DNA of 64,000 nt, from assembly GCA_039033415.1 (NCBI GenBank), contig JBCCCR010000003.1:1-64000 (forward strand), written 5' to 3'. Below are positions 142 to 24,784 of this stretch, piece by piece. The notes below the pieces were generated by a model. That model was given only the letters and a program-made list of their open reading frames with translations. It had not been told where the DNA came from and ran no database searches. A program made the position numbers and the translations under genes. Numbering within the stretch: position 1 is the first letter of the stretch; each line of letters opens with the position of its first letter. The DNA comes from Pseudomonadota bacterium (GTDB lineage: Bacteria; Pseudomonadota; Gammaproteobacteria; Xanthomonadales; SZUA-38).

Positions 142-150
142 ATAGGAATT

Positions 151-552
151 GTGTATTTCAGCGGACGAGCATCAATAACAGCCGGGGGGCTCCGCTTGAC
201 TGCTCATGATGGGCTTCCAAAATATGCGGAGTACCTTTCTGTTGATCCATCAAAGTTTGCATCCGAACGAGTTCTCTTCCTGCTAGACGTTTGTCTTGAC
301 TCTGGTTCGAGTTTTATCTCGGACGATATTCAGAGCAGCGCCTTTGGCTTCGCAAAGTGTGAAAGAGATCGGGGTAGTATTGCTAAGGCTCTGACGGAAA
401 TGGACCCGCCGCAAGTTGATACAGACGACAGCGGCAATGTAGAGGTGAGCGAACTTCTTGTTTTCCTCGCATCAAGAGACGACATCGAGGTGTCAGAGTT
501 CAACTGGTCTCGCCAGGCGCTGGATACTCCGATCATTCAAGTAGAACCTTGA
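151..552 (+). CDS. Hypothetical protein, possibly 5'-truncated by the IS
   Basis: A 133-residue acidic protein with no family I recognise. It has a GTG start only nine bases after the apparent end of the IS3 element, with a short AGGA three bases before it, so the natural N-terminus may have been removed by the insertion. The C-terminal half includes the stretch ALTEMDPPQVDTDDSGN followed by a helix-strand pattern. No signal peptide or membrane segment is visible. It could be the tail of an unidentified island gene, and expression may depend on the IS end. Confidence 0.4.
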   Translation: MYFSGRASITAGGLRLTAHDGLPKYAEYLSVDPSKFASERVLFLLDVCLDSGSSFISDDIQSSAFGFAKCERDRGSIAKALTEMDPPQVDTDDSGNVEVSELLVFLASRDDIEVSEFNWSRQALDTPIIQVEP

Positions 553-676
553 GATAGGCACATTAGCTGAAACGGAAAACTGCAGATGAAAAAATGAGCA
601 ATCTGGATTTCCTTGGACAACGGCGTAACCAACGTTCATTTCTTAGGACATAAAACACGACCCCAAAAAGCATTGT

Positions 677-2473: not shown

Positions 2474-2704
2474 AAATACCTGCGGCTAGACTCGACTGCG
2501 ATTCGGCTGGTCGCGGTCACGGCTTTGATCAGTCTCAATGAACGCAAAGTCGCACCATATCGGTTGCGGCTATCGCAATATCAGGACTGGCGATAACGTT
2601 GGCGGTTCAGATTTGGACTCAAGAGAAGATATGCAAATACCGAGGGGTTAGAACTAGGTGGCCGGGTTAACCCGAACTGCCAATGATGGCAAGATCTATT
2701 GGAG

Positions 2705-5131
2705 CTACCGCTGCTTTATACCCGGCAGTCTCCTGCGCACTTCGCCAACTGTCGCAGTGGATACAACCTCGGCCAGCAGCCCGTCGCGAAGAACAAACCT
2801 TGCTCGGCGATTTCTCAGGTCAATCCAACGCCCTGAGTCCTTACTTAGCGTTGCTTGATATCCTGACTCCTTCCGTCGCTCGAGTTCGATACAGTAGTCG
2901 GCCCCCGACAATAGAAAATCGAGTGAATCGGTTGACGCTTTTGATTCACCAAAGATGAAAAAACTGGTAATGGGCTCGGTGGTGACTAGTTCGAACAGAG
3001 CTGGCCAAAAGAGAGGATCATTGCCCAACTCTGGGAGGATAAAATCTGCAACCTCGATATGATCGAAAATAACGCGATCTATTGGAGTTCCGGCGCGACG
3101 GGACGCAATAAATGTACCTCGCAACTCAGCTAGGAAATGCTCGGCCCGAAAGTTTCTACCGACTGAGAACCACCTAATCGATTTTGTGGGAAGCTGATCC
3201 CACCTTTTTGCAAGTGACGCACCAAGGTTTCTAATGTATTGAGACTCTGGGATCCTAAAAGTTACCACCAAGACTTTGGTAGGCAGCATTCGGCTTTCAG
3301 TGATGGTGTCAATAGAAGGCTCTGTCGCTAGCTCCATTGCAAGCCAAGGCTTGGCGGTCCCATTGCTTCCTTTGATTAACGTTGAACTCTTCTCACGAAT
3401 GCCAAGCGTATTTACTAGACTGTTTATAGGTTTGGGAAGCGAAATGAATTTCTGCGTACTTGGAATTGACCGCCGCCGCCTCCGCAAGGCACTTATCGTC
3501 GCGTCAGCAGATGGGTATACGCTCACACCTTTCTCACTATTGATTCGAAATGGGTGTTTGCCAGGCTGAAACCTTTGGGCGCGACACTTCTCGATTTCCA
3601 TCCATCGTTGATTTCCGTTATCGATTCCTAGCCGAATTACAGTATCTGCTAGATAAGAAATCTTGGAAAACTCAGGGTCGTCGTCGTCTTCATGAACAGC
3701 TAGCCCCCAGAATCCATTGCGTCTGAGGACGTCAAAAAAACCTCCCAACCACTCCCTACTGTTCTCCGGATCGGCGCCCTTAAGGGCGTTAACACTATCT
3801 ATTGCGACAGCTTTCCAATTACGGTGCCTCAGCCCCCCCGAAAGACGCTCCAGCGCGCCGACCAGGTCTCGTCTCTTGATACCCTTAGGTCGAGCATCAC
3901 TGGCAGGTTCGCAAAAGAATGCCAGCACACCCCGCGAGTCTTCTATCTCAGCAAAAACACCGGTTGCACTTTCATCAGAAAACTCAACCAAATCATAGGC
4001 AGAGGGATCAAGCAGATTCAGCGATACCAGCCTATCAACGAGCATCGAATAACTTTCCTCTAAGGAAAAGTAAATCGCCGCTTTTCCAGCCTTTGCAAAA
4101 TTTGCTAAGAGAGTGAGAGCAAAAGTAGTTTTCCCAGATCCGGCTGTTCCGTCGATCACCCAACCGGGACCAGTATCGGTATTTGGTAGTAACCCACCGC
4201 AAAAAATGAAGTCTAATCCCGGAATATTTGAATAGTGGCCAAAGACTCGCGCCTGTAGATAACTATTATCAAGAACGCGTAAAGGGCTCACCGCACAAAC
4301 GCGAGAAGGTTTCAAGTATTCATCATCCCCCACTCGATATTGAAGCCGTACGCCGTTAACGAGTCGATAGAACAGATAGACACCAAGAGCAACTCGATCG
4401 GGAGTATCGGAAACAGTCTCGTACAAGCTCGAAACTCTTGAAAGCAGAAAACTCAAGCTAACCGTATTGGGCCTATTTGCTCTGACATCCCTTATAGACG
4501 GGTGCGCTTCGCCGTAAAAGATCTCATTCACTCGATTGCAAACGAGATTGAGAGCATATTTCTGCTCAGTATTAAAACGAATCCCGAATTCTCGACGAAT
4601 CCAGTCTTGGATGTGGATTTCCGCGAGAGAATCGGTTTTGCCGTAAGTCTCGATCAAATAGTTCTTTAATACAGCTATAGGATCAACCGATTCACCTATA
4701 TATGTTGCAGCAACCCCCTTGAATTGACGAGCTGCACTCGGGTCGTTTACTGGCTTGATGGTCCAGTGTGGATCGATCGAATCCGAATCGAAAACAATAA
4801 AACCCGCATAGTTGTCCGAGAACAGGTCTGGGAGACGCAAATTAGAACTTGTTTTCCCCGCCGGGGGACGAAGCAGCATGTTTTCTATTGATGAGGCAAT
4901 TGAGTGGGAAGGCGTGAATCCACCTCTTTGAATATGCCTCATAATCGGAGAGGTTTTCGCGACTTCCCATATATCTGCCTTGGCAAAAGTGGCAGCGGCT
5001 TGTCGCGTGATGAGTTTGGGAGCAAGCCCCTGCCCATCGACGCGGTCCATTGCAAACTCGTAATTTAAGAACTCTACAAATGCGAGTACTTGCCTTAACT
5101 CTGATGCAAATTTACGTCCGCCTAACGGCAT
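2705..5131 (-). CDS. Tandem KaiC/RecA-like ATPase, second domain degenerate
   Basis: 808 residues. After a unique N-terminal region (1-300) comes a KaiC-type RecA fold: Walker A GTAGSGKTT at 328-336, the KaiC-typical glutamate pair E358-E359 in SLEES, Walker B around D445 (AIDS), and SYLADTVIRLG near 492-502, the usual KaiC strand. A second copy follows at about 560-790, where the P-loop is broken (GSNGTAKP at 588-595, the Thr after Lys replaced by Pro), so it probably does not hydrolyse ATP. The tandem layout recalls clock KaiC, but the phosphosite region is not evident and the context is a defence-like island. The start codon overlaps the preceding small gene (5122-5131), so translation is coupled and it belongs with the cyclase. 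Likely role: ATP-driven sensor or switch controlled by the cyclase product (inference). Confidence 0.8.
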   Translation of the reverse strand: MPLGGRKFASELRQVLAFVEFLNYEFAMDRVDGQGLAPKLITRQAAATFAKADIWEVAKTSPIMRHIQRGGFTPSHSIASSIENMLLRPPAGKTSSNLRLPDLFSDNYAGFIVFDSDSIDPHWTIKPVNDPSAARQFKGVAATYIGESVDPIAVLKNYLIETYGKTDSLAEIHIQDWIRREFGIRFNTEQKYALNLVCNRVNEIFYGEAHPSIRDVRANRPNTVSLSFLLSRVSSLYETVSDTPDRVALGVYLFYRLVNGVRLQYRVGDDEYLKPSRVCAVSPLRVLDNSYLQARVFGHYSNIPGLDFIFCGGLLPNTDTGPGWVIDGTAGSGKTTFALTLLANFAKAGKAAIYFSLEESYSMLVDRLVSLNLLDPSAYDLVEFSDESATGVFAEIEDSRGVLAFFCEPASDARPKGIKRRDLVGALERLSGGLRHRNWKAVAIDSVNALKGADPENSREWLGGFFDVLRRNGFWGLAVHEDDDDPEFSKISYLADTVIRLGIDNGNQRWMEIEKCRAQRFQPGKHPFRINSEKGVSVYPSADATISALRRRRRSIPSTQKFISLPKPINSLVNTLGIREKSSTLIKGSNGTAKPWLAMELATEPSIDTITESRMLPTKVLVVTFRIPESQYIRNLGASLAKRWDQLPTKSIRWFSVGRNFRAEHFLAELRGTFIASRRAGTPIDRVIFDHIEVADFILPELGNDPLFWPALFELVTTEPITSFFIFGESKASTDSLDFLLSGADYCIELERRKESGYQATLSKDSGRWIDLRNRRARFVLRDGLLAEVVSTATVGEVRRRLPGIKQR

Positions 5132-5607
5132 AACTTGTGAGCAGCGTCAATTTTGTGGGTTGAAGAAGAGCCCGTTTTTATTGAGTACGTGTAGTCGGGT
5201 TCACGCTGGCGATGATGCAGAAGACGCCGCAAGAGCCCGGGTTTTTCAGTAGGTACCGATGTTTCGTTTGAAGCTACAGGCAACGTATAGTCTCGCCAAT
5301 CATTCAAACCAACTTTCGCGCTGCCGGATTCAAAGAGCAAAGTCTCTAGTTCGTCTGGGTATCGACTGCCGGCGGACGTCAGCGTGCCTCTCAATTGGCG
5401 AAACAGACTAATCGCCTTATTATCGGCATTAGTCTTTCGTTCGATTAAGTACATTATCTTTATCAAACGAGTAAGTGAGTCTGCAGCCGCCACTTTCTGC
5501 GCAGAGTCTTTAGCTCTGCTCAAGTCTCGCAACGCGTCCTGCATTTGAGCAAAAAAGACGTCATAGTCGGGCCTGCGAGCCTCCCTATCTTCTTGACTCT
5601 CAGTCAT
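5122..5607 (-). CDS. Small helical protein between cyclase and KaiC-like ATPase
   Basis: 161 residues with no recognised domain. The first 75 residues (Asp/Ala/Leu rich, no Pro) should form helices; the region after 110 is basic and low in order. It overlaps the cyclase gene by 8 bases upstream and the KaiC-like gene by 10 bases downstream, so it is part of a tightly coupled three-gene unit. It could be an adaptor or effector partner for the ATPase. No membrane segment, nuclease motif or TIR-type signature is visible, which separates it from the usual Pycsar effectors. Confidence 0.7.
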   Translation of the reverse strand: MTESQEDREARRPDYDVFFAQMQDALRDLSRAKDSAQKVAAADSLTRLIKIMYLIERKTNADNKAISLFRQLRGTLTSAGSRYPDELETLLFESGSAKVGLNDWRDYTLPVASNETSVPTEKPGLLRRLLHHRQREPDYTYSIKTGSSSTHKIDAAHKLCR

Positions 5608-6943
5608 TTCGATAAAGCCTTCCGGGGACTCTATCTAGGAATGCATAGCGCGATTTCTTCATTACTTCGTTCTCGTCGTTCTGCAGGTGAGCCGAGAATC
5701 TTCGCTTTGCCCTTATCGGTGCGCTGAGACGTCTAAGAATGAAGTCTAATGCCCGGCCCTGAACCACCGTGGTTTGCTTAAGCATCGCTTCAAGTTTCGA
5801 CGAATCAGGAGACACCTTTCTGCGAGGAATCACGTTTACCCAACCCTTGGAGCCGCCAGAAATTTTCCTAAGTTCTTCTTGGAGCTGCGCCAGATCGCTC
5901 GCAAACTTTTGTCCATGCGCTCCTTCCATTGGAAAGGCTTTCATGAAATCGAGTTTCCTCTGTAGAGCTAGATCTTTCGGGTAATTCGTTTCATCGGCAG
6001 ACCTTTTGTATCCAATCAACGCGAATAACCCATCGACCGCACCAACTACAACCTCCGCCTGCAGGCCACGCTCGGAGGATCCTCTTGCATTAATTAGTTT
6101 CTTGAGACCCTTCGAGATCTTTATGAGTTCAAAATAGACCTTAAGGTCTAAGCGAGATATCTCGGCAGTTCGAAACATGGTGGTAATCAGACCTAAGGAT
6201 TCGGTTCGAAAGTCGGAATGAGCTTCGTCTGACTCAACATAATTTTTTACATCCGTTCCTAAAACATATGACGCTCTTTTCACAACCTGTCCGTTGCCAC
6301 CCTGACTTCGAGACGATGTTTCCTCATGCTGTTGGGGAGATTCCTCTTGTTGGCCTGTATGGCCTTCTTTCGCATACAACTCATGCACTATGTGATTTCC
6401 AAATCCTTTCGCAAGCTCTATTTCCCCAAGAGGGCGTATCGACATTTCACCGGAAATATCGGAGCCCTGTCGTTCAAAAAACTCCGTCTTCAACTCGCTA
6501 ACATATTCGTCCGTGGCCCAAATTTGCCCCGGCTCCACCTTCGGTTCGAGCCGTGCAGCAGTGACGATACTTGGACCGTACGGCGTTTCCTCTCTGCCTC
6601 GAAAAGGGTCCAGCGATTTCTCATAGCCACCATAATGCAGTGCGACTCGCATCTTTAGGCCTGGCGGAATAAACCTGGCATCCCCTTTAGGTTCGTGCCG
6701 GTATTCGTTCGAGTTCAGATATTCGTTCATTGTGCGAGCGGCACTGGCTAGAAGTAACGTGCGTTCATGAATCACTATCACACCATCACCCCAAGAGTTC
6801 GTATACTTTGCCCCGTCAACCACAGTAGAGATCCTTTCATATAGGCACTCCATAAGGTATTCGTGGAACGCCCCTGTTTCATGGTAGTCGAGTTTTGAGT
6901 AGCCGCTGATATCAGCAAATAGTATTGCGTGTTTTTCTGCCAT
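5600..6943 (-). CDS. Class III (adenylate/guanylate-type) nucleotide cyclase with C-terminal helical region
   Basis: 447 residues. The N-terminal 190 residues form a class III cyclase catalytic domain: metal-binding D11 in FADISGYS, second metal residue D53 in SWGDGV, the RVALHYG strand near 100-106, and AARLE with the transition-state arginine R131, followed by PGQIWAT. A polar Gln/Glu-rich linker (about 195-220) leads to a helical C-terminal domain that I do not recognise. The base produced (cAMP, cGMP or a cyclic pyrimidine) cannot be told by eye. The ATG at 6943 is chosen over an adjacent TTG at 6946. It is the first gene of the cyclase-helical protein-KaiC operon; stand-alone bacterial cyclases of this type are known as Pycsar immune sensors, but no standard Pycsar effector sits here. 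Confidence 0.82.
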   Translation of the reverse strand: MAEKHAILFADISGYSKLDYHETGAFHEYLMECLYERISTVVDGAKYTNSWGDGVIVIHERTLLLASAARTMNEYLNSNEYRHEPKGDARFIPPGLKMRVALHYGGYEKSLDPFRGREETPYGPSIVTAARLEPKVEPGQIWATDEYVSELKTEFFERQGSDISGEMSIRPLGEIELAKGFGNHIVHELYAKEGHTGQQEESPQQHEETSSRSQGGNGQVVKRASYVLGTDVKNYVESDEAHSDFRTESLGLITTMFRTAEISRLDLKVYFELIKISKGLKKLINARGSSERGLQAEVVVGAVDGLFALIGYKRSADETNYPKDLALQRKLDFMKAFPMEGAHGQKFASDLAQLQEELRKISGGSKGWVNVIPRRKVSPDSSKLEAMLKQTTVVQGRALDFILRRLSAPIRAKRRFSAHLQNDENEVMKKSRYAFLDRVPGRLYRND

Positions 6944-7425
6944 CAATATGGATTTCCAATGTGTTCAAAAGCTGGGAGGCACACGTTTTCTCCGAACCAA
7001 GATCCTTGGTGGCAACCGCTAACGAAGCCGAGTAATACAAGCACCGGGTATCTGGATTTGCCTTCCACTCGATAGAGTAATGTCGCGGTATCGTCGACAT
7101 CGGACGTTCGCCCCCCCTTTAACACCGAACGCGTTTGATTCGTCGGCTACACGGCACTATCAATCCCCTTAAGCCGCGCAGAGTGGCTTCCACGCGATTG
7201 TGCTAAACCTTACACTGGGGTAAACACGTCGGTCAATTTTCCGTATTCAAGAGAACGCCTAGGTTAAGGCTCTACTTGCCCCTTTGTTTCGAGGAGCAAC
7301 AAGCCAGTCAGTGGAAATGGCGAGAGCGGTTGTCAGATCCGATGAAATTGAACGACCCCAGGGTTTTCCGGAGTCCTTTTGGTAAGACCTTTTCGGCACC
7401 TGGTTTCGCTAATTCCGAGCGGGCA
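6944..7425. other. Intergenic region upstream of the cyclase operon
   Basis: No gene is supported here. Short frames on both strands have no recognisable content. The gap separates the GIY-YIG gene from the cyclase operon on the same strand, so the cyclase operon probably has its own promoter inside it. Confidence 0.5.
7207..7236 (-). promoter_or_regulatory. Candidate sigma70-type promoter for the cyclase operon
   Basis: On the minus strand TTGACC (7236-7231) and TAAGGT (7212-7207) are separated by 18 bases, about 260 bases upstream of the cyclase start. This is only a weak consensus match and the 480-base gap holds no other convincing signal. Confidence 0.25.
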
Positions 7426-8775
7426 TCAGCGATCTGAGGGGATTTCAGGCCAATAGCCCCTGCTTTGGAAGAATTCCGTAGACTCCACCTCCTCGCAAAA
7501 TTCGAGGAGATTTCCAACCATAGAGAGCAACACGTCGCGCACCTCGCTCGGCTTAGCGAAGAAGAACTCTTTTCGCGCATTTGCGTGATTGAGCCGCCGG
7601 TCGGAAAAGTGATCATGCAGTTCCTTTTCCAACGTCACGGCGTCTTCTGAGAAAAACAGTGCGTGCACGTCAAACTTGAACGGAACAGATGCGCCCCCTA
7701 GTTCGTTTACTCGGTCAATCGGCTCAAGACGCCGAGTGAGTCCGATCTTGACGACGTTCTTACCAAATGCGCCAAGGTTCGAGATTACGTAGACGTAGCC
7801 TGCCCGAACATTCGCTTGCCGATAGTCGTTTTGCTCGATCGCCTGATCGATCTCCGCAAGCTTCGACTCAAGTACTGAATCAGATTGTCCTGAGCGAGAC
7901 AGCGCCTCAAGAGCCTGAACCAAGTGGGTACGCTCTTTGTCGAGCCGTTCGCGTTCGGCGGCCAACTCGGCCTGAACTCTTTTCTCTTCGCGTAGTCGGG
8001 CTCGCTCCTCCTTTGCCGCCTCCCTTTCTTCCTGTTTCTTCATCTGGAAGTCCGCAGTGAGTTCGATTTCCTGGAGTCGAAGGCCATGGAATTCATTGCT
8101 AACGCGCATTTCCATCATCGAACCAAGTCTCGCGATTGCGTCTCGGGTGCGCTCTACTCGCTTCTTGGCTGCCAGCACATTCCCGGCTCGGAGTGCGCGA
8201 ATACAGGCATCCACCTGAGAGTTGTAGGCGATCAGCATCAGCTTCGAGAAGTCCCGAGTCATCTTCTTACCCTGAGCCAAGGAATTGTCGAAGGTGAACA
8301 TGCTCGAGACTTCTATTGCGGTCCTGGATTTGACCATCGCAGAGATCTTGCTATTCAATTCCTTCAGCTTTGTCTTGTACGCCTCTGCATTTTCTAACGG
8401 GTGGTGATACCGGTAAATCCCAACTTGCTGAAGCACCACTTCATCGTTGAGGCTAGCCAAATCCTCGTCTGATTCACCCGCTTCAGCAAGCTGAGCCCGA
8501 AGCGCTTGGTTCTCAGACTCAAGAAATCGGAGGCGGACGGATGTGTCCGCCGAGGGCTGCTCGATGGTGCCCCTTTCTGGCGTATCTTCGGGTGTCGGCG
8601 TGGAAACCTCCTTGCTTCCCCTACCCTTAGGGGCATTGTCATCAACCCACATCTCCCAACCATCAGGCGGGGCCGGCCAGCTGGGATCGGGAGTCCAACC
8701 TTTTGGTGGCTCCCAGTTATCCGGTGGCTTTGGCCAACCAGGCGGCGGATTAAACTTAAGCGTTTTCTGTGTCAC
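7426..8775 (-). CDS. DUF4041 protein with C-terminal GIY-YIG (T5orf172/MUG113) domain
   Basis: 449 residues in three parts. Residues 9-43 are a Trp/Pro-rich segment with repeated PPGWP/PPDNW/PDPSW units. Residues about 110-300 are helical and match the DUF4041 layout ending in a charged coiled coil. Residues 325-415 are a GIY-YIG nuclease-like fold of the T5orf172 type: YVYVIS (GIY strand), VVKIGLT (YIG strand), the R-V-N-E-L-G helix, E385 region (LEKELHDHF) and RKEFF. Such proteins occur in phages and mobile islands; a nicking role is inferred. The start overlaps the coiled-coil gene upstream by four bases (ATGA), so the two are translationally coupled. Confidence 0.78.
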   Translation of the reverse strand: MTQKTLKFNPPPGWPKPPDNWEPPKGWTPDPSWPAPPDGWEMWVDDNAPKGRGSKEVSTPTPEDTPERGTIEQPSADTSVRLRFLESENQALRAQLAEAGESDEDLASLNDEVVLQQVGIYRYHHPLENAEAYKTKLKELNSKISAMVKSRTAIEVSSMFTFDNSLAQGKKMTRDFSKLMLIAYNSQVDACIRALRAGNVLAAKKRVERTRDAIARLGSMMEMRVSNEFHGLRLQEIELTADFQMKKQEEREAAKEERARLREEKRVQAELAAERERLDKERTHLVQALEALSRSGQSDSVLESKLAEIDQAIEQNDYRQANVRAGYVYVISNLGAFGKNVVKIGLTRRLEPIDRVNELGGASVPFKFDVHALFFSEDAVTLEKELHDHFSDRRLNHANARKEFFFAKPSEVRDVLLSMVGNLLEFCEEVESTEFFQSRGYWPEIPSDR

Positions 8776-10070
8776 GCACTTCTAACGCCTTCCACGTTAA
8801 CGGCGACCAAGCCAAGCGGATTCTTCGACACACTGGCTCCGAGCATCTCGAGCGTGGCGCCCGGCACCACCTTCGCCAAGTTGATTTTTAGGAACTCCTC
8901 ACGCGCGGCAGAAGCTGCGATAAACGGGATATTCGTTTCTTGTCCGGTCGCCGGGTCAGTTGTCGAGGTCCCGACCACGAGCTTTATCGAGTGGATCAGG
9001 CCGCGGCGATCTGCTTCAAAGACCTCATGGAAAGACCGAAGACTGACGCGCTGGACAGCGAGCAGATACCGATCCTTTGACGCCTTCTGAGTCTGATTGG
9101 TCGCCTTAATCTCGTCGGCAGTCTTGTTGTACTTGTAGTGCTTTACCGCGGGAATTTCGTCAGGCGAGGGGATTGAGACCTTGAGGTCTAGCTCAGCCGT
9201 CTTCGAGTCAAAATCAAAATCATGGGAAACAGGAAACGTGTCTGGATAGATCGAATTCGAGAGAACAATCGAAACGTATTCCTGCACGGCTTCCTCGGTG
9301 CCATACCCGAGGTTGGCAATCAGCGTATCAAGGTTCCGATTTTGCTCTTCAACCTTTCTTTCTCGCGCATCGCAGTCCTGCCTATAACGTTTTTTCGCAT
9401 TCGCCAAATCGGTCTTTCTTGCGGCTTCCTTTGTCTTCCAATCCTCTTTAGCTTTTACGAGAGCAACTGCAGCAGCCTTTTTCAGCCTTTTCCAGTCCTC
9501 AATGCTTTCCGTATGGGCCGCTTTCGCTTGCTTCAGCTCGCGCTCAAACTTCTTCTTTCCCAAGATGCTCTTCAAGCCCCGCGGAGCTGGTGGTGGTGCA
9601 AAGATTGGCTTGACGGGGAGCTCAGGTGGTTTGGGCTCAGGGAGCGGGTTCTCCAGCTCAGGGTGTTCGAAAGGAGGGTGTTTGACCGTCCCCCTAAGCG
9701 TTTCCAGATCTACATAGTCATCAACGGCCAGTGTCGCTTCGAGAAGCCCGTCAATTTCGGAATAGGTGGACTCGAGCACTGAATTTTTGTCTTCCGCCTC
9801 GCGTTCCATCGACGCGATGTGCGCAGCTTTTAGTTCCTTTTCAAGACGTTTCTGCTCAGCCGCCAATCGCTTCTTTTCCGCCGCATCAGAGGCGACTTTG
9901 GCAGCGGCGAGTTTTCGCGCGAGCTTTTCCTCCTGACGTCTGGCGGCCTCAAGCTTCCTTGCGGCCGCGAGGCGGTCCTTCTCGCGCTGTCTTATTCGAC
10001 GCTCATTCTCACGCGCGCTTCTCTTCAGTTCTCGATTGATCGCGGCAAGGATGCCAACTCTTCGACCCAC
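8772..10070 (-). CDS. Coiled-coil protein coupled to the DUF4041/GIY-YIG gene
   Basis: 432 residues, GTG start preceded by a strong GGGAGGG. Residues 10-100 and 175-260 are Lys/Glu/Ala-rich coiled coils separated by a Pro-rich spacer (PEPKPPELPVKP, about 143-154). The C-terminal 150 residues look like a compact alpha/beta domain (for example LDLKVSIPSPDE and later SIKLVVGTST) that I cannot assign. No signal peptide. The ATGA overlap with the next gene argues for a two-component system; a structural or sensing partner for the GIY-YIG protein is the simplest guess. Confidence 0.65.
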   Translation of the reverse strand: MGRRVGILAAINRELKRSARENERRIRQREKDRLAAARKLEAARRQEEKLARKLAAAKVASDAAEKKRLAAEQKRLEKELKAAHIASMEREAEDKNSVLESTYSEIDGLLEATLAVDDYVDLETLRGTVKHPPFEHPELENPLPEPKPPELPVKPIFAPPPAPRGLKSILGKKKFERELKQAKAAHTESIEDWKRLKKAAAVALVKAKEDWKTKEAARKTDLANAKKRYRQDCDARERKVEEQNRNLDTLIANLGYGTEEAVQEYVSIVLSNSIYPDTFPVSHDFDFDSKTAELDLKVSIPSPDEIPAVKHYKYNKTADEIKATNQTQKASKDRYLLAVQRVSLRSFHEVFEADRRGLIHSIKLVVGTSTTDPATGQETNIPFIAASAAREEFLKINLAKVVPGATLEMLGASVSKNPLGLVAVNVEGVRSA

Positions 10071-10674
10071 GGTTTCCCTCCCTGTTACTTAAACACCAGT
10101 CGCCCAGAACACCCCCTTACCCAAGAGATTGACACAAAACCTCTCAAGGATAAAATCCTGTCGAATGCTGATGAGTACGCTGGTGTCTTGCTCTCGGGGT
10201 CTGGCAAGAGCCGACAAGAAACTCAGGGGTCAGTACCGGGTGCCATGTCGGATTGGATCTAGGACTTGATCCTGACCCCAGAGTTCGAGCCTTAATCGTC
10301 GCAGCTCAGCGCCCGCAAGCAAGACCGTTAGGATCAATGGGGCCAACGGACCCGAGGACTGGGCGGCTACCGGATCGGGCCGGGTGTCAAAAACAAAGGT
10401 TGCGGTGTCATTCGCTGGATCGGGATCTTCCTGCCCCAAAAAGGGATGCGACACAATCGTTCGTTCTCGAAAGCGAATCACCTTTTTTCTAATTCTTTCT
10501 GTGTCTTTATCCGGTCTCCTCGTTCCATCGGTCAATCCTATGGGAAACCGCTCAGCCAAATTAGGTACCATTACGGGGGTAACGAACACTTCTACATGAA
10601 TCCATTTTGCTTGGCTAATCCGTACTGAAATTTTTCCGCCGTTATTATGCGGCAACACAACTTGAGAACAGAAA
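10071..10674. other. Intergenic region with an inverted GGGGTCAG pair
   Basis: No gene is convincing here. A 142-codon minus frame at 10230-10658 ends inside a repeat-like sequence and has no recognisable domain. A + strand TTGACA (10129-10134), 16 bases, TAAAAT (10151-10156) resembles a promoter but no gene follows closely. Confidence 0.45.
10222..10283. repeat. Imperfect inverted repeat of the GGGGTCAG type
   Basis: CTCAGGGGTCAG at 10222-10233 faces CTGACCCCAGAG at 10272-10283 (11 of 12 pairs match) with 38 bases between. Related GGGGTCAG sequences recur between genes further right, suggesting a dispersed REP-like family. Confidence 0.5.
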
Positions 10675-11085
10675 ATGGCGTTTTACGACAGCTGGCGAAT
10701 ATTCTGGATAGGAGCAAAGGCGGTCTTAGGCCGGTCCTCAGACTTTCCGCGATCGCGAGAAAACGGTCAGCAAATTATCTCTCACCTCTTAGAGATGGAA
10801 AGAACTGAGGTCAACGACTTGCTAGATGCTTTTTCTGTGGAGCATCGCAGCACCTCGTCCAACTCGGAAATGCGAATTGCTAGCAATGAAATTCTGAATT
10901 CACTCGGGGAGGAAATTGAGGAGATAACGGAAGACGACACGCTTTCCGAGAAACAGCAGCTCGATGCATACTCGGTTGGGATCGGAAGTTTAAAGGATCT
11001 ACTTGGCGAGCTAGCTCCCTGGCTTAAGAACACGTTGACCTTGCTTAAGGAAATTTTCGATTTGCTCGGGACGAAACGAAGCTGA
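10675..11085 (+). CDS. Hypothetical small helical protein
   Basis: 136 residues, ATG with a GAGAAC stretch some 9 bases upstream. The sequence is acidic and predicted helical, with a Leu-rich C-terminus (LAPWLKNTLTLLKEIFDLL at about 113-131) that could be amphipathic. No family is recognised. It is the only plus-strand gene in this part of the island and stands alone, so it may be a cargo gene or a small toxin/immunity protein; there is no direct evidence for either. Confidence 0.5.
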   Translation: MAFYDSWRIFWIGAKAVLGRSSDFPRSRENGQQIISHLLEMERTEVNDLLDAFSVEHRSTSSNSEMRIASNEILNSLGEEIEEITEDDTLSEKQQLDAYSVGIGSLKDLLGELAPWLKNTLTLLKEIFDLLGTKRS

Positions 11086-11218
11086 CCAGTTGGCCTGTGG
11101 AGAATCGAGGCTCAGATCTTTCGTCTCCATACATCATGGGACAGGATTTGCTTGACATCACCCGGTGCGGATGAATCGTTAGTTAGAGTTAGGAGCGCCA
11201 ATCCGAAAACCTGTTTCA

Positions 11219-11842
11219 TTATCTTCTCCTCAAAAAGTTCGCGGTGAATGTAATGATTAGCAATACCACGGTGGTAACCGCGACAGGCCCAATCGCAGGA
11301 ACTGCGGTCGGGAGAGGAATACCAAATACGGTCCGCTGCGTGTTGTTGCTATCGTTTGGGTCAGTCATCGGCCCTGTCAGGCCGCCACTAATGTTTCCGA
11401 TAGTCCATGTGATTTCCAACGATCCTTCGAAATCTGCAGAAAGGAAGTAATTGCCACTGCATTGAATCGACTCGCCCGCGGGAAGGAGGTTGATGGTCGA
11501 GACCCCGTAGACGAAAAAAGGCGGGAGTGGCGGCGGACGGCTAAAGTCAGTCACGACGAAAAAGCAGGTATCGTCTCGAAGTCCGACGAAGACTAAGCCC
11601 TCTGGAACTGCACTGGTGCGTACGCCTGGAGTTGCAGGCTCTGGCCCGGCGTTAAACATGGTGATGGTGTACTCACCAACGGTTCCTGCAGCTATAGGCT
11701 CGGGAGGATTGAGTTCGATCTCAAAGGAAAGATCGGCCTCAGGTAGTGGGGTTTGTGCGATCGACGTGCTGCCAATGAGCAAAGCAATGACGAGCAAAGT
11801 TGCCAAGCGGGTCTTCGCGGCAACATGAATACACAGGTCCAT
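11219..11842 (-). CDS. Secreted DUF11-like protein with C-terminal IPTL/PEP-CTERM-like sorting signal
   Basis: 207 residues. Residues about 12-29 form a Sec signal ending near SIAQ. The middle (35-170) resembles a single DUF11/conserved-repeat beta domain (DLSFEIELNPPEP, then a GEYTITMFNAGP strand pair), common in surface proteins. The C-terminus has PAIGPVAV, a hydrophobic helix and RRR, the layout of IPTL/PEP-CTERM-type sorting tails processed by exosortase-like enzymes. Two Cys (CFF, QCSG) could pair in the periplasm. No sortase or exosortase gene is in the window. It lies between the defence genes and the att-like site. Confidence 0.65.
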   Translation of the reverse strand: MDLCIHVAAKTRLATLLVIALLIGSTSIAQTPLPEADLSFEIELNPPEPIAAGTVGEYTITMFNAGPEPATPGVRTSAVPEGLVFVGLRDDTCFFVVTDFSRPPPLPPFFVYGVSTINLLPAGESIQCSGNYFLSADFEGSLEITWTIGNISGGLTGPMTDPNDSNNTQRTVFGIPLPTAVPAIGPVAVTTVVLLIITFTANFLRRR

Positions 11843-12171
11843 ACGGGGGTAAGCCTAGTTGAGTTGAATCATCACGAAAATAGAGGCACCCGATTATCGG
11901 GAGAGATTTGCCCGGGCTCGTTCTTTCAATAAGACTGTTTTGCCCCGAATCACCCCTAGCCCTGCGAGACATTGTTCAAAGCATATTTCAAGGGTTTGCG
12001 CATTCGCGGGCACGAAGGGGGGATAAATGGACTGAAGCTTTTATCTGCTCAACTTGGGCCAAATTTGGGCCAATCGGTAAATGGCCCGGAGTCGTTTTTG
12101 GTCCTTTTCAGTAGCGAATCGATGAGCGGCCGCCGCTAACTTATTGATTAATATGAGTGAAAAATCGGTTA

Positions 12172-12223
12172 GGGCCGTCTTTTAATCCATTGGTCATAGG
12201 TTCGAATCCTATACGGCCCACCA
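12172..12223 (+). pseudogene. tRNA-Lys(UUU)-like fragment lacking the D arm; candidate att site
   Basis: From 12179 the sequence reads as the 3' part of a tRNA: anticodon loop CTTTTAA (UUU at 12181-12183), 3' anticodon stem, variable region, T arm ending with GGTTCGAATCC, acceptor strand ACGGCCC at 12213-12219 and encoded CCA to 12223. Directly before the anticodon loop stands GGGCCGT (12172-12178), a perfect partner of the acceptor strand, but the D arm and the 5' anticodon stem are absent. It cannot fold as a normal tRNA. Such 3' halves are typical att duplications at the far end of islands inserted in a tRNA gene, and the + orientation fits an island lying to the left. Confidence 0.75.
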
Positions 12224-12447
12224 TTTTTCTTCTTAAAAATCAATAATTTACGTCTATTCGAGCTGCAACAACTCGGCACTTACCTGCTATTGTGGGCCAA
12301 ACTTGTGTCGCGAAAGTTTATGGCTCGTGACGCGATACACCATGGAGCCTGGAAAGTGTCCGGCCCTCCATAGCCAAGAGTCTCCAGTCACCATGGCGAT
12401 CGACTCTTTCCGGAACAAGCCAACGCTACGATAGGCATGTCAGTGTG

Positions 12448-12523
12448 CTCGATTGCGCCAAACGCTGGAACTGGCGCCGAGTCTCGGACCCGACCTGACA
12501 CTTGCGTCCTGGCCCCGGCGCTT
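12448..12523 (+). repeat. Diverged 75-base repeat, copy 1
   Basis: This stretch (CTCGATT... GCCGAGTCTCGG ... CCTGGCCCCGGCGCTT) is similar along its length to 15448-15522, with scattered mismatches. It is intergenic and ends about 95 bases beyond the stop codon of the BAAT-like gene. Confidence 0.6.
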
Positions 12524-12617
12524 GACGTACTGCTTTGTCTTGGGCGCGTTTCTCGGCGCGGTCGCCTTCTGATTCGGCCTGATGTCCGTGCTTGAGAAGA
12601 ATCGAGAGGCGCAGTTG

Positions 12618-13973
12618 TCAGTCGGCGTCCGGTCGAAGGTGGCGGGTGAAAAAAGCGTTGAGCGCTGGCCAGGCTGCAGCCTTTGCTCGTGCGTTTTCGG
12701 GGCGGGTAGGATTCTGCGGTGGCCCGCTGAGACCATGGCCCGCATCGGCAAAAACCAGCGTCTCTGTTACCCGGCCGGCATCGGCACGAGTCTTGGCAAT
12801 GTTGACCGCCATGAGACCCGAGTCCCAAACCTGGTCCCGGCCGCCACCCAGGAGAAAAACCGGCGCGTCGATGTCTTCGACCGGAATGCGCGCCGGATCG
12901 ACAGCGTCGGGGTGGGCGAGGCGACCCTCGGCATGCGGCACGCGCATCGCCACCCTCTCGCCATCCGAGGGTGGGCGAAACACGCGGCCCATGTCGAGAT
13001 AGGGCACGAAGGCCATGGGCTCACCACGCCAGGAAAAGCTCGAACTCCGCGCGGCCGTTGTACCAGCGCCCCAACCTTCCCAGATAACGTCGCTGGGAAC
13101 GATCGCCGCGACAGCAGCGAAGCCGTCGATACGGCTGGCGGCGGCGAGCACAAATTCAGCACCTTTCGACACGCCGTACAAACCGATGCGGTCCATCTGC
13201 ACATCGCCGCGCGCGCGCAAGGCATCGCGAACTTCGGCGAGCCGGTCGACGGGGATGTCGGCAAATGCCCGAGGCAAGCCTGGCACTGCTTGCGGCTGGT
13301 CGCCCCATGCCGGCGAATAGTAGGGGTAGCCCACCACGAGATATCCTCGCGCGGCCCACAAGGGCGCGGAATTACGAGCGCCGCTGTCGCCACCCTCCGA
13401 GCCACCAAGCACGATGATCGCGGGCAGCGGCTCGTCGCCCTCAGACCGCAGCACAAACGCACCCGGGAAGCGCTCTCCTAGCGGAGTCTCGACCAGCTCC
13501 TTTGCAGACGCCCGAAGCGTCAGCCGCGCGGCGGCAAGCTCTGTGTCAGCGCTGTCCACAACACGCAGGGCGATCTCCTCCGGTCCGAGCCCCGCCGGTG
13601 TTTGTTCGCCGGTGTTGCTCATCGTCCAGAACAGCCCGTTGGCATCCGGACTGTTCCACTGGCTATCGACCGGCGTATCGGCAGTCAGGTCGATGACGCC
13701 CTGATCGTCAGCCACGAAGCGGACCTTGCTACGATAGAGGTCGTCCGGCACCCAGACGCCGGCCCGCGACGCCTCGATAACAACCTCCTTACCGGCCGGC
13801 AGCGACTCGACCCGGACGTTTACGGTGTCCCCCCTGAGCGACGGATTGGCGGAAAAGACAATCTGAACGTCCGAGACGACATCGGTCGGCTCGGTCGCTG
13901 TTACGTTCGCGCATCCGGCTTGTAGAATGACGCAAGACAGGAAGAGAAAAAACGATAGATCGCGGCCAGGCAT
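12618..13973 (-). CDS. BAAT/acyl-CoA thioesterase-like lipoprotein hydrolase
   Basis: About 451 residues from the ATG at 13973, chosen because it gives a short basic N-terminus, a hydrophobic stretch and a lipobox LQAGC. The N-terminal domain is a beta-sandwich of the thioesterase/BAAT type (VRVESLPAGKEVVIEAS), and the C-terminal domain is an alpha/beta hydrolase: GGSEGG oxyanion region, nucleophile elbow GVSKG and a late ADAGHG with the catalytic His. BAAT-family enzymes act on acyl-CoA or related thioesters; an exported lipoprotein version probably has another ester or thioester substrate. It stands alone; the LytTR regulator upstream is on the same strand with a gap of about 110 bases. Confidence 0.75.
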   Translation of the reverse strand: MPGRDLSFFLFLSCVILQAGCANVTATEPTDVVSDVQIVFSANPSLRGDTVNVRVESLPAGKEVVIEASRAGVWVPDDLYRSKVRFVADDQGVIDLTADTPVDSQWNSPDANGLFWTMSNTGEQTPAGLGPEEIALRVVDSADTELAAARLTLRASAKELVETPLGERFPGAFVLRSEGDEPLPAIIVLGGSEGGDSGARNSAPLWAARGYLVVGYPYYSPAWGDQPQAVPGLPRAFADIPVDRLAEVRDALRARGDVQMDRIGLYGVSKGAEFVLAAASRIDGFAAVAAIVPSDVIWEGWGAGTTAARSSSFSWRGEPMAFVPYLDMGRVFRPPSDGERVAMRVPHAEGRLAHPDAVDPARIPVEDIDAPVFLLGGGRDQVWDSGLMAVNIAKTRADAGRVTETLVFADAGHGLSGPPQNPTRPENARAKAAAWPALNAFFTRHLRPDAD

Positions 13974-14083
13974 AGCGGGTCTCCTAAGGGGCAACAGACC
14001 TAAGGCTGGCATCAAACGCCTTGAACGGACGAGATTTTCCGCGAATGGGCACGCGCGCGCCGCGAGTGGTGGGTGTTATTGAT

Positions 14084-14893
14084 CTAGGCGGCGTGCCTGC
14101 GCAGCGTTTGTGCACCGCTGCGACTAGTGTCGACGCTGCGCCCGCCTCCCAGAAAAACCCGCAGGCGGCCGCCGCCGATCGATTCCACCGACTCGAGCGC
14201 GTCGAGATTGATCAGGTGCGCGCGGTGCACACGGATGAAGCGCCCCTGCGGGAGCTGGCGCTCCAGCTCGGCCAGGCTCTTGCGTGTCAGGTGGCACTGA
14301 CTTGCCGTCACGATCTGCGCGTAGTCACCGGCACGCTCGATGCAGAGGATGTCGCTGACCGGCACCGGGACGAACTCGTCCTCAGACCGCACCAAAAGCC
14401 GGGTGGTCGCGTTGGACGGGTCGGATTTCCGAGCCTGCCGCTGCACCCAGAGCAACTGGATCACGGCCAGCGCCACCACCAGTGCGTAGATCGTCAAGCC
14501 CTGAAAGGTCTGCCAGATAAAGGCAACGCTCGAGAAGGGCCGCACTGAGAACGCGCCGGTAAAATTGCCGTCCCGCCAGCCGAGCAGCACAGTTACCGTG
14601 AAGTACCAGAGAGAGGCGTAGGCAAACGCGCAGATCGGCTGCAGCAAGCCCTGCCACGCCGGGCGTAGCCCCAACAGCAAACGCGTATTCAGCCACCAAG
14701 CAGCTAAGCCCCACAGAGCCAGGGCGCCAACGTTGATCAGGGCGGCCACCACCGCGTCGCCGATCGGCATCCTGCCACCGGAGCTCAACAGGAAGACAAC
14801 CGTGTAACAGACCAAGAGAAGCACCAACAGCGCGGCAAACGCGCGCTGTGCCGGATCGGCGTTGGCGAGTGTATTGGGCCAGGAAACGCTCAA
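14084..14893 (-). CDS. Membrane-bound LytTR-family transcriptional regulator
   Basis: 269 residues. Four hydrophobic segments (about 18-36, 45-66, 82-104, 127-150) are followed by a LytTR DNA-binding domain at about 165-265, with the characteristic ILCIERAGDYAQI strand, LERQLPQGRFIRVHRAHLIN and the following beta strands. Membrane LytTR regulators usually sense an envelope signal and act on few nearby genes, so the adjacent BAAT-like lipoprotein is a plausible target. The start is a TTG at 14893 with no clear ribosome site, so the true N-terminus is uncertain. Confidence 0.8.
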   Translation of the reverse strand: MSVSWPNTLANADPAQRAFAALLVLLLVCYTVVFLLSSGGRMPIGDAVVAALINVGALALWGLAAWWLNTRLLLGLRPAWQGLLQPICAFAYASLWYFTVTVLLGWRDGNFTGAFSVRPFSSVAFIWQTFQGLTIYALVVALAVIQLLWVQRQARKSDPSNATTRLLVRSEDEFVPVPVSDILCIERAGDYAQIVTASQCHLTRKSLAELERQLPQGRFIRVHRAHLINLDALESVESIGGGRLRVFLGGGRSVDTSRSGAQTLRRHAA

Positions 14894-15002
14894 GGTTGAT
14901 TGCCCCAGCCGCTATCGAGGGACGCAAGCCATGTCGACAGAGCGTCGAAGCACCCTTCACAGGCTGGGGTACCAGGAGGCAACTCCTCGTTGACGACGTC
15001 TG

Positions 15003-15260
15003 TCACGCTCTTCCGCATGACATGATTGAATTATCCAGGGAGCCCTGCGTCAGCTGCATTTCGCCGCTTTCCAATGCCTTAGCGCAGAGCTTGCCTGCAG
15101 CCTCCCAGTCAACCTGCGTATCAAGGCGCCCGAGTATCGCCATGACCGGAATCGTCAGCTTACCCAACGCGTTTTCCAGCTTCGGGTACATCACAGCGAG
15201 CTTGGGGTCCTCATCAAACTCGAGAACACCAGGTTGAAAAAGGACTGAATGTTGACCAAC
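15003..15260 (-). pseudogene. Remnant of an alpha/beta hydrolase C-terminal half
   Basis: The minus frame contains LTIPVMAILGRLDTQVDW, a sequence typical of the strand-loop carrying the acid residue in alpha/beta hydrolases (P-V-L-x-x-x-G-x-x-D). The preceding nucleophile region is missing, and the frame upstream runs into a dispersed repeat (15340-15363), so this looks like a decayed gene. No catalytic Ser or His can be placed. Confidence 0.4.
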
Positions 15261-15339
15261 ACCTTTTCGGTCATTTGGAAACCGTTGCTGTTGAAGTAGG
15301 AATCGGCCAGTAAATTCAACATGCCTGCATTGCAGTATC

Positions 15340-15363
15340 GGGGTCAGGTTAACTTTCATGCAG
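15340..15363 (+). repeat. GGGGTCAG-type dispersed repeat, copy A
   Basis: CGGGGTCAGGTTAACTTTCA followed by TGCAG is nearly identical to 22811-22834. A shorter relative (CAGTATCGGGGTGAG) is at 18159-18173, matching CAGTATCGGGGTCAG at 15333-15347. Confidence 0.55.
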
Positions 15364-15760
15364 AACCCAGCGCGATGTTGCTCCGTAGTCCCGCGAACCA
15401 GGAGGATTGCACTTCCAAATCTCTAACCACGACCAAAGGCCAGTTTACTCGATTCTGCCACACGCATGACCTGACGCCGAGTCTCGGGCCCCACCTGGCA
15501 CTTGGTCCTGGCCCCGGCGCTTCCAACCTGGCACTTGACCCTGGCCCCAATTCTTCTGGCCCCAATTCTTCTAGCAAAAGCACGAAGACAAGCATGGATG
15601 CCCCGCCGTCAACTCGACCAACTGTTCGCTGCGCAAAAGCGGCGTTTAACAGATTGCAAGCATGCCGACCAATTCCCGGACTGAACGTACCATTTGAGAT
15701 ATAGTCACGGCGGCGTGGCCGACGGGGCCTAAAGAACAATCAAAAGCAACAGGCGGAGTC
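15360..15760. other. Intergenic region rich in dispersed repeat sequence
   Basis: Apart from the repeat copies, this gap contains a short tandem duplication of TTCTGGCCCCAA at about 15549-15573. Short frames on both strands have no recognisable product. Confidence 0.4.
15448..15522 (+). repeat. Diverged 75-base repeat, copy 2
   Basis: Matches 12448-12523, starting with the same CTCGATT and sharing GCCGAGTCTCGG and CCTGGCCCCGGCGCTT. The copies begin exactly 3,000 bases apart, in the same orientation, on either side of the BAAT-like and LytTR genes. Confidence 0.6.
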
Positions 15761-17998
15761 GTGCCAGGACCCTTTTTCAACGAGCTCAAGAAGCGCAACG
15801 TCTTCAAGGTGGGCGCTGCCTACCTCGTGCTCGCCTGGCTGGTTGCACAAATTGCCGATACTGCCGTTCCAGCCTTACATCTGCCGGACTGGATTGTTAC
15901 CGCGGTTTTTTTCTTCGCGCTGATTGGTTTCCCGTTCGCGCTGTTTTTCGCCTGGGTCTTTGAGATAACTCCTGACGGCATCAGGAAAGAATCTGATATC
16001 GCGCCTGCCGAAGCGGCCAGTGCGCACGCCGGTAACAAGCTGGCACTGGGCGTTATCTGCCTGCTGGTGCTGGTGGCAGGCTACTTCATTTACGAGAGCC
16101 GTTTTGCCCCCAAAACCGAGGCGGCCCCCGAGCCAGCTCCTTCGAAAGAACGGCTGACTGCCGCTGAGTCACAGGCGTCAGCGGACAGCACCGATTACAC
16201 CTCAATTGCCGTGTTGCCCTTCGTCAATATGTCGTCCGACCCGGAGCAGGAGTATTTCTCGGACGGCATTTCAGAGGAGTTGCTCAACCTGCTGACGAAA
16301 ATCCCCAGGCTGCAGGTGGCGGCACGAACGTCGTCGTTTCAGTTCAAAGGCAAGAACCAGGACATTCAGGATATTGCGGCAAGGCTTGGCGTTGAGACCA
16401 TTCTCGAAGGCAGCATCCGCAAGAGCGGCTCGAAGGTGCGCATTACAGCGCAGCTCATCAAAGCCGATGATGGCTTTCATATGTGGTCGGATACCTACGA
16501 CCGGGAACTCGACGATATCTTCGTGATTCAGGATGAGATTTCCGCGGCGATTATTGCATCCCTGAAAGAGACGCTTGGCATTGACCTGGTAAGAACCGCC
16601 ACTGAAATCAGGAGCATCAACCCAGAAGCACATGACCTCTACCTGCAAGGCCTCCGAGACCTCTACATTTATACCTTCGACAGCCTTGAGTCCGCGGTTG
16701 GCGCCTTTCAGTCTGCCATTGAACTGGAACCGGATTTTGCCCTGGCCATAATCAAGCTGGCAGAGACTTACCAGTTTCAAATCCAGACAGGCAGCCGCTT
16801 TGACCGGGAGATTCTCGATACGGCTGATTCGATTCTCACCGGTGTTCTTGCCAGCGACCCCGGCGAGGCACAGGCTCATTTCGTACGCTCCCTGATTGCA
16901 TCCAAGCAGGGCAAGCGCAAGCAGGCCGAAGACTACGTTCGAGCCGCCTACAAGCTCAATCCGCATGACGTTAGCGTGATTAACCGGTATGCATCCTTGC
17001 TGGGTTTCAAGCTGGGCGAGGAAAAAACCCGGGAGCTGTTTGCACAGGCAAGGCGGATTGATCCGCTGAATTTTCGCGTCACCTACTACTTTTACAACTA
17101 TCTCATGCATACGCTGCAGGAGTCCGATGAGGCAGAAGCAGTACTGAACGCGGCAGACAAAGACACCACAGACAGTCTTTACCTGGCCGCGCTGTCGTTA
17201 CACTATTTCGAGATGGGCGAACCGGCTAAAGCACTTCACTACAACAACCTGTCAGCGGCCTACGACCCGCTGGACCCGGAGGGTCCGCTCTTTACTTCCT
17301 TCCTGGAACTGTGCCTGGGTGATGGCGCGAGTGCCCTTCAGTCGGCGGACGCGTCGCTGGCGCTTAACGAATGGCTGGGCGATGCGATCGTTGCAAAAGT
17401 CGATGCACTTGTTCACCTCGGCGACGAGGAGGCCGCCCTTGCGTTGGCGCTGCGTGTTCTGGATGACCCGCAATACTCGTACCGCAGAGTCACGAGGGCC
17501 GACCTCCTGGCAAAGGCGGTTTCCGTTCTCATGAATCGCAATGAGCTGCGGACGGCGGAACAACTGATTCGCCAGCACTATCCAGATGCCGGAGCCCTGG
17601 TAAAGCCAACCGAACCGCAGTCCAAGTCGTCAGATGAAGGCGCCTTGGCAATTGGGTTACTATCGACGGTATTGCGTGCGCTGGGCAATGAAGAAGAAGC
17701 GCAAGCCGTAGCTCGCAGCCTCGACTTGCTGGACGAGGACCACTTTACGCGTAGACAGGCGAAACTCTCGCCGAGAAACCACCTGGCTCTTGCCGAGGTT
17801 AGCGCTATACGAAACAGGGATGATTTGGCGCTGGGTTACCTGGAGTCGTTGCCAAACGGCATTTTTCCGGTCTGGTGGCGATCCCGGGTTTTGCAGTCGC
17901 CGCTGTTCATGCACCTGCAGGACAATTCGCGGTTCAATACTCTCAATGCGCAGTTTGAAAATACGATGACCGAGCAAGCGAGCATGCAGGGTCAGTAA
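15761..17998 (+). CDS. Membrane-anchored TolB-like/TPR protein
   Basis: 745 residues, GTG start. The N-terminus (FFNELKKRNVFKVGAAYLV) with two membrane segments at about 18-38 and 44-66, and a third near 90-107, is a standard head of gammaproteobacterial TolB/TPR proteins. Residues 145-285 form the TolB/FlgO-like domain (IAVLPFVNMSSDPEQEYFSDGI, then TSSFQFKGK), and the rest is tetratricopeptide repeats to the C-terminus. In relatives the head is often fused to a cyclase or winged-helix domain; neither is present here. Role unknown, probably an envelope-associated scaffold or signalling protein. A hairpin follows 8 bases after the stop. Confidence 0.85.
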   Translation: MPGPFFNELKKRNVFKVGAAYLVLAWLVAQIADTAVPALHLPDWIVTAVFFFALIGFPFALFFAWVFEITPDGIRKESDIAPAEAASAHAGNKLALGVICLLVLVAGYFIYESRFAPKTEAAPEPAPSKERLTAAESQASADSTDYTSIAVLPFVNMSSDPEQEYFSDGISEELLNLLTKIPRLQVAARTSSFQFKGKNQDIQDIAARLGVETILEGSIRKSGSKVRITAQLIKADDGFHMWSDTYDRELDDIFVIQDEISAAIIASLKETLGIDLVRTATEIRSINPEAHDLYLQGLRDLYIYTFDSLESAVGAFQSAIELEPDFALAIIKLAETYQFQIQTGSRFDREILDTADSILTGVLASDPGEAQAHFVRSLIASKQGKRKQAEDYVRAAYKLNPHDVSVINRYASLLGFKLGEEKTRELFAQARRIDPLNFRVTYYFYNYLMHTLQESDEAEAVLNAADKDTTDSLYLAALSLHYFEMGEPAKALHYNNLSAAYDPLDPEGPLFTSFLELCLGDGASALQSADASLALNEWLGDAIVAKVDALVHLGDEEAALALALRVLDDPQYSYRRVTRADLLAKAVSVLMNRNELRTAEQLIRQHYPDAGALVKPTEPQSKSSDEGALAIGLLSTVLRALGNEEEAQAVARSLDLLDEDHFTRRQAKLSPRNHLALAEVSAIRNRDDLALGYLESLPNGIFPVWWRSRVLQSPLFMHLQDNSRFNTLNAQFENTMTEQASMQGQ

Positions 17999-18005
17999 TT
18001 GCTAG

Positions 18006-18023
18006 CTCGAGATCATTCTCGAG
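18006..18023 (+). terminator. Hairpin after the TPR gene
   Basis: CTCGAGA-TCAT-TCTCGAG, a perfect 7-base stem with a 4-base loop, 8 bases after the stop codon. There is no T tract, so termination is only suggested by position. Confidence 0.4.
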
Positions 18024-18042
18024 TCGGCGCACATGGTGCCTC

Positions 18043-18150
18043 TTATGCAGCGCGCAACTCCTCCTGCAATCGCGACGGCGCAAACGGCTTGGACAGGGAC
18101 AGCCGATCGCGGACCGGCGGATTGCGCTGACGCCCAGCGGTTGTTCTGGA
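18043..18150 (-). pseudogene. Possible C-terminal remnant of a response-regulator receiver domain
   Basis: The minus frame ending at the TAA at 18045-18043 reads LSLSKPFAPSRLQEELRAA, which matches the end of receiver domains (L-x-K-P-F-x-P-x-x-L, then a helix). No phospho-acceptor Asp can be found upstream in frame. This is a short match only. Confidence 0.3.
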
Positions 18151-18500
18151 GGGAAGAGCAGTATCGGGGTGAGTTTCTGGGGTCGGAGTGAAGGGACAGA
18201 GTAAACCCACATAGCTCAAGTTGACGCCGCGAGGATTAGTTGGCTTTGATATCGCGCTTGTCGAACGTACGTTCGGCGTGTTTATCCTGAGCGCTGTCGC
18301 AGCGAGTCAAGACGCCTTTGCGACGCTTACGGTTCCCTATGGCTTTGCAATCCTTGAAAGAAGTGCATTGAAAGTTCCAGAGTAAGTATGAGGCGGCTTT
18401 TTGCGACGTCGAATAAAGAGGTCATGACCAGGTTGCACCCTGAAGTCAACCAAATTGGGTCCGGCTCGTTGTTAGCTGCACGGACACGTGGAACACAGTG

Positions 18501-24616: not shown

Positions 24617-24784
24617 GCCGGTTAGCCTGCCATTCCTTGAAAAGCTCGCCTAAACCACACAACCCCAATCCCCAAGCGCTGAATGAAGCTAGGCTAGGAC
24701 ACATTCACTGAAAGTCCGCTGAACAACCTCGAAACCTGTCGATACTTCTGAGCTTGGGTGGGCACCCCATGTCACAATGACGCC

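Follow-up and report, generated by a model that had tools for sequence, protein, structure and literature searches.

The tRNA-Lys(UUU) sequence at positions 12179 to 12223 of the window is very probably the right attachment junction (attR) of an island inserted at tRNA-Lys(UUU) by a tyrosine integrase, with the crossover in the anticodon loop. This assignment follows from a 51-bp repeat, an intact tRNA gene with its neighboring integrase on a second contig (C49), the adjacency of the two contigs, and the gene order of a sister genome. The window, the whole 64,000-nucleotide stretch analyzed here, comprises bases 1 to 64000 of contig C3 of G000, a Lysobacterales metagenome-assembled genome (MAG) of 62 contigs. 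The element is an ordinary tRNA-site island that arose by a well-known kind of event and stands in a row of probably two insertions.

A tRNA-Lys 3' fragment is repeated in an intact tRNA gene beside an integrase

The fragment extends from nucleotide 32 of tRNA-Lys(UUU) to CCA (CTTTTAATCC...ACGGCCCACCA) and is preceded by GGGCCGT at 12172 to 12178, so that the full sequence of 12172 to 12223 reads GGGCCGT followed by CTTTTAATCCATTGGTCATAGGTTCGAATCCTATACGGCCCACCA. The D arm and the 5' strand of the anticodon stem are missing from it. Neither ARAGORN nor Rfam recognized a tRNA gene in the window (0 matches each), and the fragment thus does not qualify as a functional gene. The initial annotation had described it as intact from the anticodon loop to CCA, which is borne out both by the letters and by a perfect copy on C49: positions 12179 to 12229 match C49:2404-2454 (minus strand) over 51 bp with 100% identity (E = 3.8e-20), the only other match reported for the fragment in the genome. 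Given this match, the fragment is not a chance resemblance. The repeat constitutes the att core (12179 to 12229, plus strand) and consists of the tRNA-Lys portion plus TTTTTC, with identity between the window and C49 beginning precisely with the first anticodon-loop base and closing 6 bases past CCA. The att core at tRNA genes usually extends from the anticodon loop to slightly past CCA. The intact tRNA-Lys of the sister genome G001 (contig C96) is also 100% identical to this core.

An intact tRNA-Lys gene had been predicted to lie left of the window, beyond an insertion sequence (IS), and it was found there: C49:2410-2485 (minus strand) encodes intact tRNA-Lys(UUU) and contains the copy of the fragment. 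The suggested search to the left for an integrase and for the same fragment was likewise productive, since a tyrosine-type integrase gene (C49:1288-2394, plus strand; PF00589, 3.7e-26) adjoins the tRNA-Lys that carries the 51-bp repeat. This gene is convergent to tRNA-Lys and stops 15 bp from its 3' end. The arrangement is that of a tRNA-integrated island, with an intact tRNA-Lys and an adjoining integrase gene at one end (attL, on C49) and, at the opposite end in the window, an exact repeat of the tRNA 3' part. In the reading direction of tRNA-Lys, the element begins at C49:2403 and extends to C49:1.

Contigs C49 and C3 adjoin through an IS3-like element

C49 terminates in the first 141 bp of an IS3-like element (C49:1-141), and C3 opens with its last 141 bp (positions 1 to 141, plus strand; the end of orfB and the terminal repeat); the two ends share the terminal repeat TGTAATCCCCCC. 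The tetranucleotide ATAG, a 4-bp target duplication, is present on both sides of the IS and begins the 3' part of an IS-split open reading frame (ORF) at 142 to 552 (plus strand). When the C49 and C3 flanks were joined without the IS and one ATAG, solely to show frame continuity, they formed an uninterrupted frame of 370 codons. The IS end on C3 has a second identical copy in the genome (G000:C8:217404), which explains why the assembly breaks between C49 and C3.

The order of the sister genome, a Lysobacterales MAG of the same genus (G001; record JANQOZ010000085.1), independently agrees with this join. There, one contig carries sequence matching C49 (82-92% identity), the same tRNA-Lys, an integrase 95% identical to that of C49, and then matches to window positions 18166 to 18418 and 23487 to 25112. 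Based on the joined IS ends and ORF and on this order, C49 and C3 are neighbors that flank one chromosomal tRNA-Lys. Neither contig contains the interior of the IS; adjacency rests on the IS ends, the split ORF, and the G001 order, and the split IS, its 4-bp duplication, the split ORF, and that order together describe one continuous insertion whose IS interior is unseen. Without the IS, the island measures ~14.4 kb.

These arrangements are best explained by a model in which an element whose attP included a duplicate of the tRNA-Lys 3' part crossed over with the tRNA-Lys(UUU) gene of the chromosome within the anticodon loop. This duplicate would have restored tRNA-Lys at the left end (attL, C49:2410-2485, with the integrase adjacent), and the original 3' part would have been displaced to the right end (attR, window 12179 to 12229). 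One IS would have inserted later into the ~14.4-kb element with its likely anti-phage genes, and a decayed element of the same kind most likely begins to the right of the fragment, producing a tandem array. We infer the recombination, the order of these events, and any present mobility of the element from the arrangement of its parts. The analysis establishes the borders and direction of a defense-type island in an uncultured lineage and joins two assembly contigs.

The island carries genes with a likely role in phage defense

Reading from the IS toward the fragment, the island encodes an AIPR/AbiU-like protein that likely acts in phage defense (677 to 2473, minus strand; Pfam AIPR, 7.5e-31; PADLOC AbiU, 3.5e-33), a KaiC/RecA-like ATPase (2705 to 5131, minus; Pfam ATPase [KaiC], 6.4e-24, with a weak PADLOC mad8 match, 6.5e-8), an ORF with no family match in the Pfam scan (5122 to 5607, minus), and a nucleotide-cyclase-like protein (5600 to 6946, minus; Pfam Guanylate_cyc, 2.1e-4, slightly below the curated cutoff). 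These are followed by a PD-Lambda-1-like protein, likely also defensive (7426 to 8775, minus; PADLOC PD-Lambda-1, 4.8e-101; Pfam DUF4041 and T5orf172, the latter of GIY-YIG type), a match to a type IV restriction model (8772 to 10070, minus; PADLOC mREase_IV, 1.5e-27), and further ORFs at 10230 to 10658 (minus), 10675 to 11085 (plus), and 11219 to 11842 (minus; DUF11). Based on these family matches, the cargo likely functions in phage defense.

Genomic islands and integrative mobilizable elements (IMEs) that use tyrosine integrases to enter tRNA genes have been reviewed (PMC5704250). Like them, the present element has an intact tRNA and integrase at attL and a partial 3' tRNA at attR, bears accessory cargo (here defense-like), and belongs to a set clustering at tRNA genes. 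In contrast to IMEs, no relaxase, transfer, or conjugation gene was recognized among the element ORFs scanned with Pfam, so that IME or ICE status is unproven.

In G001, C96:44484-76812 consists of tRNA-Lys and two segments in tandem, 22.5 and 9.7 kb long, whose cargo is unlike that of the window island despite the 95% identical integrase. A 72-bp stretch of the island (10215 to 10286) matches DNA of the second of these segments (84% identity); the remaining cargo differs.

Elements at several tRNA genes share one attP arm

The sister genome carries two tRNA-Lys 3' fragments, at C96:67061 and C96:76762, which lie 22.5 and 32 kb downstream of its tRNA-Lys. The ~100 bp to the left of the fragment are alike in the window and at both of these sites, with 81-87% identity over the arm plus the fragment. 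In the window, this right (P') attP arm spans 12053 to 12150 (plus strand) and contains a direct repeat, TTGGGCCA-N3-TTGGGCCA, at 12054 to 12072 and GAGCGGCCGCCGCTAA at 12124 to 12139; both elements or near variants of them are common to the three arms, with the repeat halved in the middle G001 copy. The same arm stands before a tRNA-Met fragment and a tRNA-Thr fragment in a third genome, G003. We read the conserved arm as the P' arm, which the integrase would bind.

When 398 genomes were searched at the DNA level with the arm plus tRNA, ordinary tRNA-Lys genes dominated the matches, and an arm-only profile built from five arms was used instead. It detected 18 copies among 396 genomes of the order (G000, 8; G001, 7; G003, 3), and the three arm-bearing genomes all belong to one family. 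Most copies precede, by ~35 bp, the 3' fragment of a tRNA, which starts at the anticodon loop; the tRNAs concerned are Lys, Thr, Met, Leu, and Arg. Shared attP arms can locate the right ends of elements even where the tRNA fragment has decayed and no integrase is present. That elements targeting several tRNA genes have one attP arm in common is the sole feature of this system that might merit more work.

The fragment probably lies within a tandem array

Elements integrated at tRNA genes carry TCARNNNYTTACG shortly past the tRNA CCA, and the window has a single match to this left-end motif, TCAATAATTTACG at 12240 to 12252 (plus strand), 16 bp after the CCA of the fragment. A composite pattern (T-loop, CCA, gap, motif) run on 151 genomes gave 26 matches in 15 of them and 0 in the reversed control. 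Seven matches were in G000, five of them beside an integrase match (C1, C4, two on C12, and C43); the other two were on C40, without an integrase, and at 12200 to 12252 of the window. The integrase-bearing element itself has merely a variant of the motif, TCAGTGCTTTAGC. Beyond the motif, a left-arm direct repeat of the putative second element, GTGGGCCA-AAC-TTGTGTCG, is present at 12292 to 12310 (plus strand) with 2 mismatches, a match that is weak alone given that 2.7 chance matches per window are expected at ≤2 mismatches. Positions 12287 to 12337 align with the flank to the right of the middle G001 fragment.

At the G001 locus, blastn found no counterpart of the DNA at 12230 to 18165, which has ORFs at 12618 to 14015, 14084 to 14893, and 15761 to 17998; the protein encoded by 12618 to 14015 had no match in G001 or G003. 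Synteny starts only at 18166 to 18418 (G001:C96:78318-78569, 90% identity), with the next anchor at 23487 to 25112 (84%). Given the left-end motif to the right of the fragment and the unmatched DNA behind it, we infer that 12230 to 18165 is probably the relic of a second, integrase-less, decayed element and that the fragment separates two members of a tandem array. None of the ORFs listed for the corresponding second segment of G001 resembles an integrase; no distal att was found for the second window segment. The claim that the fragment marks the right border of an island therefore stood for the integrase-bearing island, although the fragment is probably not the border between island and chromosome, and window DNA up to ~18.2 kb should probably be treated as accessory too.

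We stop at "probably" for the tandem array because its far end is unseen and the search for a clean empty site found none. The tRNA-Lys site is occupied in G001, and G003 has no similarity to the window or G001 flank downstream of tRNA-Lys. The best homologues, in relatives, of the adenosine deaminase gene that adjoins the C49 tRNA-Lys had no tRNA within 1.5 kb (15 loci); at the G001 locus, the tRNA lies just outside the 1.5 kb scanned.

Arrays of this general kind have precedents. In its treatment of CIME accretion, the same review (PMC5704250, citing Pavlovic 2004 and Bellanger 2011) describes incoming elements that insert at the gene end belonging to an element already in place. The arrays described there resemble the probable one here in that tandem elements are divided by partial ends of the target gene and some lack an integrase; they differ from it in that here several tRNA genes per genome are targeted by elements with one attP arm sequence and the putative second element of the window has no recognizable right end. 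The ssrA islands of Dehalococcoides (PMC3146451) are also multiple and tandem, bounded there by ssrA 3' repeats, with conserved bases beside each repeat and some members lacking integration genes, but they depend on a serine recombinase at tmRNA, whereas the window island has a tyrosine integrase and a crossover in a tRNA anticodon loop. A literature search on integrase-less tRNA islands found nothing.

The motif TCARNNNYTTACG, shortly past the tRNA CCA, is shared by several families of the order, at 12240 to 12252 of the window and at 25 other tRNA sites in 15 genomes, and may mark the left end generally for integrases that target tRNA genes.

Alternative explanations of the fragment

The fragment could instead bound the entire island on its right, in which case the DNA from 12230 onward would be ordinary chromosomal sequence since lost by the sister genome. 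G+C content climbs at the fragment, from 50.0% (1 to 12171) to 59.3% (12230 to 18165) and 59.1% (23487 to 64000), and the window holds no further tRNA-Lys fragment to the right of 12223 (up to 3 mismatches), nor did the arm profile find another copy on C3. The shift in base composition noted in the initial annotation is thus roughly where it was placed, but it does not define a border, since G+C content drops again to 56% between 15 and 23.5 kb and composition alone cannot fix one. In addition, the right flank, with TCAATAATTTACG and the weak arm-type repeat, resembles that of the middle G001 fragment, and the next gene is absent from both G001 and G003, which makes an outer border unlikely relative to an internal junction. 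That the fragment ends a decayed prophage or phage satellite, rather than a defense island, is far less probable still: the integrase has phage relatives (42% identity to phage Aaphi23), but the Pfam scan of the element's main ORFs detected no phage structural or packaging families, the cargo fits defense families, and the arm pattern had 0 matches in viral contigs.

The seven bases before the fragment had also raised the idea of an internally deleted tRNA-Lys gene, in which a 5' acceptor strand, GGGCCGT, would be fused to the 3' half and perhaps yield a small tRNA-like RNA. GGGCCGT pairs at 7/7 positions with the acceptor strand ACGGCCC, a match reached by ~0.07% of shuffled arms and once among 172 mismatched pairs, and a G003 tRNA-Thr attR reaches 6/7, a few bases off. 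However, GGGCCGT (12172 to 12178, plus strand) is element-side sequence directly left of the crossover, and AGGGCCG(T/C) occupies the same place in both G001 tRNA-Lys attRs, where the acceptor match is 5/7 and 6/7; GGGCCG(T/C) is therefore kept in three related attRs, with full pairing in only one. Other tRNA targets score 2-6/7, and most of the 14 att sites score 3-5/7. Acceptor-strand pairing as a functional feature was rejected when these 14 sites were compared with off-diagonal pairs (172 values) and shuffles. Since the sites amount to only about ten independent ones, the 7/7 pairing is a mild oddity and no evidence for a deleted or functional tRNA. Identity to the intact tRNA-Lys begins at nucleotide 32, as in att sites, and the fragment matched no ARAGORN or Rfam tRNA model. 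Given that GGGCCGT belongs to the element attP and is conserved without conserved pairing, we consider a deleted tRNA gene extremely improbable, and the attR assignment is preferred.

Other tRNA-site elements in the genome

G000 has 13 phage-integrase-family matches, at least 6 of which lie beside intact tRNA genes (Lys, Met, Thr, Arg, Phe, and Asn) and one near tmRNA, so that tRNA-site elements are unusually many for one genome. Two G000 integrases other than that of C49, ~59% identical to it, adjoin intact tRNA-Met and tRNA-Thr genes, and the same arm-type repeat as in the window adjoins or lies in the 3' ends of those genes. It is conceivable, if rather doubtful, that within this family some integrase-less elements retain both attP arms, the left-end motif and the ~100-bp P' arm, and are mobilized in trans by the genome's few related integrases, as one system serving several tRNA genes.

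The 52-kb contig C40 carries three right arms with tRNA-Met 3' fragments (positions 1498, 12641, and 43440), which delimit segments of 11 and 31 kb, and no PF00589 match was found on it. At C21:64784-64935, a right attP arm abuts an inverted 5' half of tRNA-Thr(UGU), nucleotides 1-38, with its end falling precisely at the anticodon loop. The search of G000 matched no intact tRNA-Thr(UGU); the G001 gene is at C67:23797, with three 3' fragments downstream. Candidate explanations for the C21 arrangement are an inversion between att sites, a population variant, or a misassembly.
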